A DNA stretch of 24,619 nucleotides from a virus, in IMG/VR virus record IMGVR_UViG_3300009706_000059, positions 1-24,619 of that record; one strand, written 5' to 3'. A model generated the notes under the pieces. That model made no database searches and was not told the DNA's origin. It saw only the letters and a list, made by a program, of their open reading frames with translations. Positions within the stretch are counted from its first letter, which is position 1, and every line of letters begins with the position of its first letter. This document shows, piece by piece, positions 3,600-8,822 of this stretch. The position numbers and the translations under genes are program-made.

Positions 3600-4257
3600 T
3601 TCATATTGTGATCCTTGTAGCGGTCAATTAGATCAAAGTAAAAGATGGTATAATAATCTCGGGGAACCAACTTTTATTTACGGATTAGCTGGATCAAGTA
3701 TAGATTGGTCTTTAGATAATTTTATTAATGGCCATGCGGAAAGATCTGGTAAAATAATTTTTATAGAATCCATACCTCGCCGATTTCATTTTGAATTTTT
3801 AAAAACCCCAAGACATGATGCTGCTGTAATGTGGGGCCATGATTGGGAAAATGATAAATGGCTTTCTGAACCTGGTATGAAATATGTTCATAAACATAAG
3901 CAATTTGTTAAACACTTTCATAACAACTATAAAGATTATCATAAGGCAACAAAAGCAAGATGCGTTCTAAAAGCTTTGTCCGATCAATATGAAAAAGTAT
4001 TATATTTTTCTACATCGCGCAATCGTAATAATTATGCAACCCTTGAAATACAAGCAATTGATAAATTCGAAATAGTCGATATAATATTGATGGATGCTTC
4101 CAGAGGTGAAATTATAAATGATTATGATCCTGAATTTAGAGACCAGAGATCAAATCATTTTTGCGAATCTAATCATGAAATATTATCAACATATATAAAG
4201 AGGAAGTTTAATAACGAAAGTGTTGAAGATATAATTTTTGAAAAGAATTTAATATGA
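3580..4257 (+). CDS. SGNH/GDSL-like hydrolase
   Basis: A 225-residue protein opening with 'MIHVFGDSYCD', the GDS block I of SGNH/GDSL esterases with the nucleophile at Ser8. 'GLAGSS' (35-40) fits the block II glycine, and the C-terminal 'NHFCESNHEIL' (192-202, His193 and His199) fits the block V region that carries the catalytic His. Family members remove or transfer acyl groups on sugars, lipids or polysaccharides. The start overlaps the previous gene by 20 bases and the stop overlaps the carbamoyltransferase start (ATGA), so expression is coupled. The block III Asn is not obvious, so catalytic competence is uncertain. Confidence 0.6.
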   Translation: MIHVFGDSYCDPCSGQLDQSKRWYNNLGEPTFIYGLAGSSIDWSLDNFINGHAERSGKIIFIESIPRRFHFEFLKTPRHDAAVMWGHDWENDKWLSEPGMKYVHKHKQFVKHFHNNYKDYHKATKARCVLKALSDQYEKVLYFSTSRNRNNYATLEIQAIDKFEIVDIILMDASRGEIINDYDPEFRDQRSNHFCESNHEILSTYIKRKFNNESVEDIIFEKNLI

Positions 4258-5681
4258 TTTATTGGGGATTAACTTGTGGTTCACATGATGGTGCTCTAGC
4301 AGTATATCATGATGGAGATATAGTATTTGCAACTGATGCGGAAAGATTTTCCAGAAAGAAAAATGATCCAAATATTCCTAAGGAACTTCTTGATTATGTT
4401 TTAGAAGAATATGGGGAACCATCCAAAGTTTATTTTTATGAAAATCCATTTGTAAAAACGTCGCGACGTTGGTATGCCGGACAAAAACCATTTTATAAAC
4501 CACCAGAGTTTCCTTATAATCATAAACTGAAATATACTTCACATCATTTATCTCATGCAGCGTATGGTTATTATACTTCTCCCTTTGATAATACTATGGT
4601 TTTGGTTATTGATGCGATAGGAGAATGGGAGACATTGACCGTATGGAAAGCCAAAGGTAAAAAGTTAAAGAAGTTATGGAATTGGAAATATCCTAAATCT
4701 TTAGGTTTGATGTATTCAGCATTAACTCAATATGCTGGATGGAAACCTAATGAAGAAGAATATATTATGATGGGAGCCGCGGCCCGACAGATGTATCCAT
4801 ATGAGCCAGTTTATAAAAGAATATTTGAACTCTGGAATAATGGAACGAACTGGCATAAAGGTTTACTCAAATTAGAAGAATGGACAAAAAGACCAGAAGT
4901 TTATCCTGAAGATGTTCCTACTGCCGCCCAAGCGGTATATGAAGATATTTTTAGAGACATAATAAAAAGAGTTAGTATTCATAAATTAAATGAAACAGGT
5001 AATATAGTTTTTGTGGGAGGATGTGCTTTAAATGTTAGTGCCAATAGATTTTTATCAGATTATTTTTCTCGTATCCATATTCCATCTAATCCAGGTGACT
5101 CTGGTTCTGCTGTGGGATGCATTCTGGCAAGAACAAGAAACCACATTGATCCTTCTCCTTATCTTGGTTATGATATTCAAGGACCGTTTCCGTTTCAAGA
5201 AATAATAGATGAATTAATGATTAAAAGAGTGGTTGGAGTTGCCAATGGTAGATGTGAATTTGGGCCGAGAGCTTTAGGTAATAGAACTTTATTTGGGGAT
5301 CCAAGAGATCCTAAAATTAAAGATAAAATTAATGAAATAAAAGGTAGAGAACCTTTTAGACCTTTTGCACCAATGATATTAGAAGAAGATGTTTCAAAAT
5401 ATTTTAATGGAGGATTTTTTTCGCCGTATATGAGTTGTGCTCTTCAAGCAACGGAAGAATTTAAAATTAAATATCCAGGAGTTGTTCATTTAGATGGAAC
5501 TTCTAGATTACAAGTAGTTACGCACGAGCCTCATAAAACGTTATTACAAATTTGGAAAGATATTACAAAATGTCCAGTATTATTAAATACGTCTTTAAAT
5601 ATTAAAGGAGAACCAATTGTCAACACCAAAGAAGATGCTAAAGCCTTCACTAAGAAAACGGGTGTCAACGTATATTCTTAA
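4254..5681 (+). CDS. Carbamoyltransferase (NodU/TobZ/CmcH family)
   Basis: A 475-residue two-domain protein. The N-terminal Kae1-like domain has 'GSHDGALAVYHDGDIVFATD' at the start, the metal-binding 'HHLSHAAYG' (His97, His98, His101), 'VIDAIGEWE' (Asp120), and later 'GGCALNVSANRF' and 'NPGDSGSAVGC'. The C-terminal YrdC-like domain has 'GRCEFGPRALGNRTLFGDPR' and 'REPFRPFAPMI', then 'LLNTSLNIKGEPIVNT'. This family makes carbamoyl-AMP from carbamoyl phosphate and ATP and transfers the carbamoyl to a sugar or small-molecule hydroxyl. Marine T4-like phages commonly carry it. The C-terminus stops soon after the EDA block, slightly shorter than many homologues. The ATG overlaps the upstream stop. 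Confidence 0.93.
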   Translation: MIYWGLTCGSHDGALAVYHDGDIVFATDAERFSRKKNDPNIPKELLDYVLEEYGEPSKVYFYENPFVKTSRRWYAGQKPFYKPPEFPYNHKLKYTSHHLSHAAYGYYTSPFDNTMVLVIDAIGEWETLTVWKAKGKKLKKLWNWKYPKSLGLMYSALTQYAGWKPNEEEYIMMGAAARQMYPYEPVYKRIFELWNNGTNWHKGLLKLEEWTKRPEVYPEDVPTAAQAVYEDIFRDIIKRVSIHKLNETGNIVFVGGCALNVSANRFLSDYFSRIHIPSNPGDSGSAVGCILARTRNHIDPSPYLGYDIQGPFPFQEIIDELMIKRVVGVANGRCEFGPRALGNRTLFGDPRDPKIKDKINEIKGREPFRPFAPMILEEDVSKYFNGGFFSPYMSCALQATEEFKIKYPGVVHLDGTSRLQVVTHEPHKTLLQIWKDITKCPVLLNTSLNIKGEPIVNTKEDAKAFTKKTGVNVYS

Positions 5682-7101: not shown

Positions 7102-7596
7102 ATGAAAAAGAAAGATAGAAAACTTTATGATTCGTGGAAATATAAAAAAGGAAATTATATGGAATTTAATAATCCAGTTTTTCAGACCTTACTGGGTCTT
7201 GTCATATTTTACATTGGCTTGAAAATGTTCACAGGTGGAATGAAATCAATGAGCCATTTAGAACAACTTGAATGGTTTCTAGGAAATCCTTATTGGATGT
7301 TCTCGGGAGCAATTGTATGTACTCTTCTTTGGCAATCTTCATCACTTACTACAACTGCGGTTATTGGTCTTGTTGCTTCTGGCTCATTACCCTTACCGTC
7401 TGCAATCGCCGCTATATTAGGTGCAAATGTGGGAACAACAGGAACTATATGGATAGCAGGAATGTTAGTGAGCGATGGATTACCTACGGGCATTACGCGG
7501 CAGGTAGCTCTTGTACATACAGGAGTAAATACTTTTATGGCAATTGCCTTACTTCCGTTTGTGCATCACATTTCGCGATATGTTTCTCGCTTTTAA
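7102..7596 (+). CDS. Na+/phosphate cotransporter half (PNaS/NptA-like)
   Basis: A 164-residue membrane protein with one complete PNaS repeat: a hydrophobic segment 'LLGLVIFYIGLKMFTGGMKS' (30-49), then 'WQSSSLTTTAVIGLVASG' (77-94), 'AAILGANVGTTGTIWIAG' (103-120) and 'VALVHTGVNTFMAIALLPF' (135-153). QSS and GAN-GTT are the substrate- and Na+-binding signatures of type II Na+/Pi cotransporters. Full bacterial proteins have two such repeats plus a PhoU-like tail; this one has a single repeat and might work as a dimer. A strong Shine-Dalgarno (AAAGGA, 7147-7152) favours the ATG at 7159, dropping 19 basic residues. It would sit in the inner membrane and raise phosphate uptake during infection. Confidence 0.85.
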   Translation: MKKKDRKLYDSWKYKKGNYMEFNNPVFQTLLGLVIFYIGLKMFTGGMKSMSHLEQLEWFLGNPYWMFSGAIVCTLLWQSSSLTTTAVIGLVASGSLPLPSAIAAILGANVGTTGTIWIAGMLVSDGLPTGITRQVALVHTGVNTFMAIALLPFVHHISRYVSRF

Positions 7597-7622: not shown

Positions 7623-7732
7623 TGGCTCTGGGGGTTGGGTTCGAACCAACACATCTTTGATCTAGATTATACGATCAAACCAAAGATAATACGCTAACAA
7701 CGTACCGCGTCTTCCTGTTTCGCCACCCCAGA
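7623..7732 (-). tRNA. tRNA with anticodon GTT (Asn), 38-base variable arm
   Basis: On the minus strand the acceptor stem TCTGGGG/CCCCAGA pairs perfectly over 7 bp, followed by G73 and an encoded CCA (7625-7623). The D-arm has a GCG/CGC stem with conserved GG in the loop. The anticodon arm GTACG/CGTAT carries loop TTGTTAG, anticodon GTT at 7698-7696. The T-arm is GTTGG-TTCGAAC-CCAAC. GTT plus G73 are the Asn identity elements known from E. coli. The variable region (7688-7651) is 38 bases instead of 4-5, with a 7-bp stem (7687-7681 with 7659-7653), and the D-arm resembles tRNA-Leu. It lies 18 bases downstream of the synthetase-like gene on the same strand. Aminoacylation identity is inferred. 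Confidence 0.82.
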
Positions 7733-7750
7733 GTATCACGTATTATTATA

Positions 7751-8608
7751 TCAGAATTCGAATTTTACATTCAGGGCACTTATAAGTCTGGTAAGACCTA
7801 TTCCACCACCATATCTTGGAAAAAATTTATGACTTAAGAATTCTTTCAATTCTTTTTCTACTCGCGCTTCGCCGAATAATTTAAATAATAATTCAGCATA
7901 TTCTCCATCGGAAATTGTATGAAACTGTTCTCTCATCTCTTCCGGATCAGCAGACCTTTCAGCGGAACCGATAGTTTCCATGCCACCCATAATTACATCA
8001 CATTTGTTAGCAAGATCACCTACTTTTTTCATATTCCAAAAGGGGGAAGTATGATAAGGAAATTGAGTTATAAATCCAACACCGGAAGGATGAGAATCAG
8101 ATATCATTTGTTCGTGCTCATGATCTAATTCTTCACAATCAAATTCCTGACACCACATACCATAACTTTTTTCAGGAAATGGTTCGGCAACGCGATCAGG
8201 AGGTATGAAACCTAAGTGGTAAATTAAATCTCTTTCCATATTAAGTAAGTCCTGAAAGTCACCAGGTGCTTCAAACTCAAACATGGGAAATATAACTTCA
8301 TGTCTGCCTTCGACAGGATTCTGTTCTTGTCTATAAGATGTTGAAACACAGAATACACCTTTTAAATCCGGATTATTTAATAGCTCGTATTCCAACCACA
8401 TTTGACCGGTTTGGGGTAAAGGCCATATGATGTCATTATAATTATATGTTGCGACAGTTGTAGGATCTTCGCAAGCAGCTAATATGGATAATCTGTTTTG
8501 GGTGTGAACTTCGAGAAAACCACGGGAATGAAAAAAATTACGAAGACGGGTAACGGCATTGTCAAAATCTGCGGGTATAATTAAGCTAGTCAGTTTGTTC
8601 CTTTCCAA
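7751..8608 (-). CDS. Class II aminoacyl-tRNA synthetase core, AsnRS-related
   Basis: A 285-residue minus-strand protein with all three class II motifs. Motif 1 spans residues 20-36 (GFLEVHTQ), with Gln where Pro is normally invariant. Motif 2 is 'YRQEQNPVEGRHEVIFPMFE' (92-111: Arg93, Glu95, Arg102, His103, Phe107). Motif 3 is 'YGGGIGLTRL' (266-275, Arg274). 'FITQFPYHTSPFWNMK' and 'METIGSAERSADPEEM' align with AsnRS blocks before motif 3. The N-terminal OB-fold that reads the anticodon is absent, as in archaeal AS-AR (tRNA-independent asparagine synthetase). It could make Asn, load the adjacent GTT tRNA, or modify something else. The start is unclear: TTG at 8608 follows an in-frame stop, and no ATG lies nearby. 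Confidence 0.88.
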   Translation of the reverse strand: MERNKLTSLIIPADFDNAVTRLRNFFHSRGFLEVHTQNRLSILAACEDPTTVATYNYNDIIWPLPQTGQMWLEYELLNNPDLKGVFCVSTSYRQEQNPVEGRHEVIFPMFEFEAPGDFQDLLNMERDLIYHLGFIPPDRVAEPFPEKSYGMWCQEFDCEELDHEHEQMISDSHPSGVGFITQFPYHTSPFWNMKKVGDLANKCDVIMGGMETIGSAERSADPEEMREQFHTISDGEYAELLFKLFGEARVEKELKEFLSHKFFPRYGGGIGLTRLISALNVKFEF

Positions 8609-8761: not shown

Positions 8762-8822
8762 AATCAAATATGTTGACATGTTGCGCTATAAATGGTATAA
8801 TATATATAGAGAATAAAGAAAG
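8762..8822 (+). promoter_or_regulatory. Consensus sigma70 promoter, copy 1
   Basis: TTGACA (8773-8778), a 17-base spacer and TATAAT (8796-8801) give a perfect host-type promoter, expected to act early. The whole 61-base block is nearly identical (2-3 differences) to the block at 11676-11736. It drives the 81-residue gene and the CobT-like gene. Confidence 0.88.

Follow-up and report, generated by a model that had tools for sequence, protein, structure and literature searches.

What function is served by a gene for a truncated asparaginyl-tRNA synthetase (AsnRS)-like protein when it is placed next to a tRNA gene with an asparagine anticodon in a marine phage? The question is raised by a 24,619-nt viral sequence (IMG/VR record IMGVR_UViG_3300009706_000059, positions 1 to 24,619; hereafter, the window). 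The first-pass annotation described a minus-strand class II synthetase core of AsnRS type without the anticodon-binding domain, followed 18 bases later by a minus-strand tRNA with anticodon GTT and G73. The two were considered the only minus-strand genes of the window and probably co-transcribed. The likeness to archaeal AS-AR, which has the same truncated layout and makes Asn without tRNA, led to the suggestion of either a dedicated enzyme–tRNA pair or an Asn-supply gene plus a tRNA, possibly evading host AsnRS or tRNA-cleaving defences. The observation itself was confirmed and proved to be far broader than one phage. The interpretation was supported only in part, since the pair is conserved and the core is of AsnRS type, whereas the asparagine synthetase reading was not supported and nothing found favours evasion of tRNA-cleaving defences. 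The annotation also missed two features: in most relatives the tRNA lacks bases normally needed for decoding, and the enzyme is linked to pyrimidine genes in cells and phages.

The protein, hereafter X, is encoded by a minus-strand ORF at 7751–8608 and comprises 285 aa with a TTG start; its homologues start at the position of residue 6, here a CTG at 8593. The only Pfam match is PF00152, the class II (D, K, N) synthetase core (E 9e-18, residues 18–279), and the whole protein aligns to the catalytic domain only, so there is no N-terminal OB-fold anticodon-binding domain. X belongs to phrog_29758, of unknown function (1e-111). The stop codon is followed by an 18-nt spacer (7733–7750, minus strand) and by a minus-strand tRNA at 7626–7732 (Rfam RF00005, 41.5 bits, gathering score 29), with the encoded CCA end at 7623–7625. 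The anticodon GTT lies at 7696–7698, and the discriminator G at 7626. The parsed cloverleaf has acceptor, anticodon and T stems of 7, 5 and 5 bp, and the folding z-score is −3.9. ARAGORN does not find this tRNA, presumably because of its 38-nt variable region (7651–7688, minus strand), which bears a long hairpin (type II arm). A separate cloverleaf parser found no other candidate on either strand of the window. All other sizeable non-overlapping ORFs are on the plus strand. Co-transcription is inferred from spacing and orientation, as only a weak minus-strand promoter match (9 of 12) lies upstream; the divergent plus-strand genes have a perfect sigma-70 promoter, TTGACA-17-TATAAT with extended TG, at 8773–8801.

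Conservation of the two-gene linkage in marine phages had been proposed beforehand as a check, with the routine occurrence of one gene without the other as the outcome that would count against the pair. At least 596 viral-contig stretches encode a relative of X. The 314 loci that were retrieved (designated L with a number) were reduced to 227 distinct ones. Among 141 distinct phage loci with at least 350 nt downstream, 127 carry a GTT or GTC cloverleaf according to the parser and five more by inspection, so that the same two-gene order is found in 132 of 141; nine phage X loci lack the tRNA. The order is therefore not due to chance. The spacer is mostly 4–11 nt, and in some loci a small ORF intervenes; in L010, L017, L018 and L034 such an ORF between X and the tRNA has a possible zinc-finger motif (SCFECD...EHQEEH). 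Huge-phage members (L084, L085) lack the adjacent tRNA, and scanning with the L085 homologue gave nothing. In L093, a contig binned as Pacearchaeota but resembling the phages, the tRNA seems reduced to its two acceptor strands (TCCGGGGTCCCCCGGAGCCA), a deletion remnant. Cultured examples of the pair are the Prochlorococcus phages P-SSM2, P-SSM7 and P-SSM5, in which it is labelled "tRNA ligase" with "tRNA-Asn"; otherwise the family is annotated as unknown. No close DNA relative of the window was found among named phages beyond a 344-bp patch.

The tRNA is not a tRNA-Asn in its body, which corrects the initial description; only the acceptor end and the anticodon are of Asn type. The D arm matches the tRNA-Leu type in 121 of 127 sequences, as it does in 7 of 8 phage tRNA-Leu(UAA) and in 0 of 55 other phage tRNAs. 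The variable region is 11–39 nt in 120 of 127, unlike the short variable loop of a type I body. The Leu anticodon and A73 of tRNA-Leu are, however, absent. G73 is present in 127 of 127 sequences and GUU in 125 of 127. In the 112 distinct sequences, the anticodon is GUU in 110 and GUC (Asp) in 2, G73 is constant, and the 1:72 pair is U-A in 111, although 2:71, 3:70 and all other variable pairs show compensated changes; only 1:72 and 53:61 are near-fixed. Bacterial Asn identity is transplanted to another tRNA body by the anticodon plus G73 alone, and U1-A72 is the determinant for GatCAB amidation of Asp-tRNA-Asn (PMC9976931). The phage tRNA is thus a Leu body rewritten to Asn identity.

The anticodon loop shows a different trend. 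Position 37 is U in 92 of 112 distinct sequences (106 of all 127), and position 33 is not U in 27 of 112 (30 of 127), whereas 57 of 57 control tRNAs from the same loci have U33 and a purine at 37. Covariation on both sides of the loop fixes the register. Selection appears to keep charging and to relax decoding, and the family looks chargeable but not built for decoding. The window's own copy (loop UUGUUAG) is an exception with U33 and A37, while its nearest relatives (L002, L003, L008) have U37.

A private translation pair, in which X charges its own tRNA with Asn and the tRNA decodes AAU/AAC, supplementing the host AsnRS or insulating the phage from it, is favoured by the near-universal linkage, the complete catalytic core, the strictly kept GUU and G73 and the U33 and A37 of the window copy. 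It is weakened by the altered loops in the relatives, by the type II Leu body, by the cellular X genes described below, which are free of this tRNA and linked to pyrimidine genes, and by the six X-bearing genomes that have their own AsnRS; this reading is therefore considered unlikely, although charging with asparagine was not assayed. A decoy or spare tRNA against host anticodon nucleases or Asn-tRNA-targeting defences, which X would keep charged or whose pool it would repair, could explain the conserved G34-U35-U36 with altered flanking bases. However, no defence gene was recognised among the recurrent neighbours of the pair (PADLOC was not applied), X occurs in cells without this tRNA beside pyr genes, and nothing ties X to RNA repair, so that this possibility appears improbable.

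The second outcome named in advance as contrary to the pair, the loss of ATP- and Asp/Asn-binding residues from the protein, did not occur either. Q66, T67, Q69, L72, E73, R93, E95, H103, E111, E113, E211, R218 and R274 are invariant in 46 homologues. The amino-acid pocket Q66-T-G-Q69-M-W-L72-E73 is encoded at 8390–8413, motif 2 (R93-x-E95 ... R102-H103) at 8300–8332, the segment E211-TIGSAE-R218, equivalent to EIIGGSQR of AsnRS, at 7955–7978, and motif 3 (R265 ... G271 ... R274) at 7787–7816, all on the minus strand. In an alignment with AsnRS and AspRS of Pasteurella atlantica, positions 72–73 are Leu-Glu in X, Ala-Glu in AsnRS and Lys-Gln in AspRS, which indicates an asparagine-type pocket. 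Motifs 2 and 3, E73 and R218 are shared with AsnRS, whereas a Glu that AsnRS and AspRS share before the motif-2 Phe is Ile106 in X.

Comparison of a predicted structure with known synthetases, also suggested at the outset, ranked AsnRS first. The AlphaFold2 model (pLDDT 93, pTM 0.90) matches class IIb AsnRS structures such as 8h53, 1x54 and 2xti; the match to 8h53 has Z 26.8 and 2.5 Å over 251 residues, against 25.7 for the best AspRS and 23.7 for AS-AR (3rex). In the profile comparison AsnRS was likewise first (2xgt, 9e-14) and AS-AR far lower (3p8t, 6e-5). X nevertheless falls far below the curated AsnRS cut-off (asnS model TIGR00457, 25.1 bits against 342.6). An ammonia-dependent asparagine synthetase like AS-AR or AsnA, with the tRNA as a separate accessory, could be supported by the stand-alone class IIb core of the same length as AS-AR, by that structural match and by weak NCBIfam hits to AS-AR-like models. 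These hits are far below the curated cut-offs (NF005055, 23 of 389 bits; NF005053, 18.2 of 322 bits), X has Leu-Glu instead of the Lys-Gln of AspRS, the type expected for an Asp-binding site, and the reading explains neither the tRNA nor the pyr operons. It is therefore held to be very unlikely, although formation of Asn from Asp, NH3 and ATP was not measured.

A scan of 84,980 prokaryote genomes revealed X at about 50–62% identity in Patescibacteria, Dependentiae, Midichloriaceae, Chlamydiae, Bacteroidota, Myxococcota, Woesearchaeota and the complete chromosome of Pasteurella atlantica. No tRNA of this kind lies beside these genes. The odd-tRNA pattern had no match in 15 X-bearing cell genomes, against one match each in 11 of 15 virus records. 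Six of 15 X-bearing genomes have a canonical AsnRS, so X is not simply their AsnRS. A quick tree, with SH-aLRT support only, places phage X in two groups among cellular X, and a comparison of phage-specific residues with cell X gave no obvious tRNA-binding patch. In many Patescibacteria (L091, L095, L100, L101, L103, L110, L112, L128, L129), X lies between dus (tRNA-dihydrouridine synthase) and dnaX, an arrangement to which no meaning was assigned, and in L115, L136, L155 and L157 an argininosuccinate-lyase-like gene lies directly upstream of X.

X adjoins pyrimidine genes within 3.5 kb in 15 of 73 cell loci and 14 of 154 phage loci. At an assumed chance rate of 2%, which is our estimate, 12 of 73 would already have P of about 2e-8. 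The gene forms are unrelated: X-pyrF-pyrE(short)-pyrD in Midichloriaceae and Rhodospirillaceae, pyrD next to X-pyrF-pyrE in P. atlantica, X-pyrEF(fusion)-pyrD in L142 and L144, pyrD-pyrEF-X in a Chitinophagaceae genome, and convergent pyrF/E/D in Dependentiae. In phages, the orders are pyrD-X-tRNA-pyrE (L223, L334, L335), pyrD-X-tRNA (L218, L224, L097) and prs...pyrF-pckA-HAD-pyrE-X-tRNA (L035). The last contig (L035, 118–7550) has an unusually full nucleotide-synthesis set of PRPP synthetase, PyrF, PEP carboxykinase, PyrE-like protein, X, tRNA and an IMPDH/GMP-reductase-like gene. The window itself has no pyr gene within 10 kb of X. P-SSM2 and P-SSM7 have X-tRNA but no PyrD or PyrF match, and the P-SSM2, P-SSM7 and P-SSM5 records gave no match to the phage-type PyrE.

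Short PyrE-like proteins of 126–137 aa beside X in phages, Midichloriaceae, Rhodospirillaceae and P. atlantica could suggest that X is a regulatory subunit of a short phosphoribosyltransferase, as HisZ, a HisRS-core paralogue, is for short HisG. However, X also sits with ordinary PyrE-PyrF fusions (L142, L144, L166), its catalytic residues are invariant in the 46 homologues, unlike those of a non-catalytic subunit, and the tRNA is not explained. This possibility is regarded as remote.

The canonical de novo UMP pathway consists of CarAB, PyrB, PyrC, PyrD, PyrE and PyrF, and homologues of the last three adjoin X. Among the 12 genomes with X in a clear pyr locus (L096, L098, L099, L105, L106, L120, L142, L144, L147, L149, L162, L166), PyrB exceeds its cut-off only in that of L149. 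In the eight also searched for PyrC and CarB, PyrC exceeds its cut-off in none and CarB in two (genomes G002 and G012), in the first of which it adjoins argF/argC. Weak PyrB hits in P. atlantica and the Rhodospirillaceae genome are ornithine carbamoyltransferases. PyrD and PyrF are usually present. Among Patescibacteria, however, most X-bearing genomes lack PyrD, and PyrB is absent from 9 of 13 PyrD-bearing genomes with X and from 6 of 11 without it, which is not a difference. Random sampling of Patescibacteria gave X in only 3 of 152, including the seed genome. Haemophilus influenzae is a pyrimidine auxotroph (PMC13328217). PyrB/PyrC are lacking in such auxotrophs as well, and missing steps alone do not prove a bypass. 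These counts thus leave undecided whether X accounts for the absence of PyrB/PyrC, whereas its recurrence in operons with pyrD/E/F of unrelated lineages is evident. By genomic context, the enzyme family belongs at least partly to pyrimidine synthesis.

The preferred, though tentative, explanation is that X plus its tRNA is a metabolic module of marine phages and not primarily a translation pair. The analysis itself demonstrates the retained AsnRS-type ATP and asparagine pocket without the anticodon-binding domain, the Leu body with the Asn identity set and the U1-A72 pair of amidotransferase-competent tRNA-Asn, the loss of U33 and/or a purine at 37 in most phages, and the link to pyrimidine genes, which in cells is without this tRNA and in genomes that mostly have no PyrB, PyrC or CarB. 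The reaction and the role of the tRNA are inferred. In this view, the tRNA would be loaded with Asn by the host, owing to G73 and GUU, or by X, and spared from the ribosome. X would use ATP and asparagine, free or carried on tRNA, to supply dihydroorotate or its direct precursor, so that the feedback-controlled CarAB-PyrB-PyrC steps are bypassed and phage DNA synthesis receives more UMP. In cells, free Asn or the ordinary Asn-tRNA would serve. The mass balance fits, as dihydroorotate equals asparagine plus CO2 minus H2O, and an ATP-using enzyme with an asparagine pocket could make it directly by a carbamoyl-adenylate step like that of TsaC/YrdC; no chemistry was measured, including dihydroorotate formation. 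In its strongest form, this would be a previously unknown, carbamoyl-phosphate-free route to pyrimidines, in phages using Asn bound to a purpose-made tRNA. Such a route is not excluded but is considered doubtful.

Aminoacylated tRNAs and synthetase paralogues outside translation are already known, while the proposed pyrimidine chemistry would be categorically new. Bacillus cereus tRNAOther and other pseudo-tRNAs (PMC3399842) can be aminoacylated but are not used in translation; tRNAOther is, however, cellular, poorly charged with Lys and carries a Trp anticodon, whereas the phage tRNA keeps a complete Asn identity set and sits beside an AsnRS-core gene. Aminoacyl-tRNA is a metabolic substrate for Glu-tRNA reductase (HemA) in haem synthesis and for GatCAB transamidation. 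No tRNA-dependent or other alternative route to pyrimidines, and no account of this phage pair, was found in the literature searched, which did not extend to subscription papers and preprints. If the explanation is right, abundant ocean phages carry a dedicated aminoacyl-tRNA that feeds metabolism, and bacteria own an unrecognised entry into UMP synthesis that explains genomes with pyrD/E/F but no pyrB/C. Even without the chemistry, a tRNA under selection to be charged with Asn but, in most phages, not to decode is a rare case of a tRNA outside translation in viruses, and it is directly testable because P-SSM2 and P-SSM7 are cultured.

Two further plus-strand genes of the window recur near X. 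A NodU/CmcH-type carbamoyltransferase (4254–5681; PF02543 and PF16861), here in a T4-like phage, has a homologue near X in six loci, its relation to X not having been established. A Na/Pi-cotransporter-like membrane protein (7102–7596) recurs beside X in 19 phage loci, usually convergent with it.
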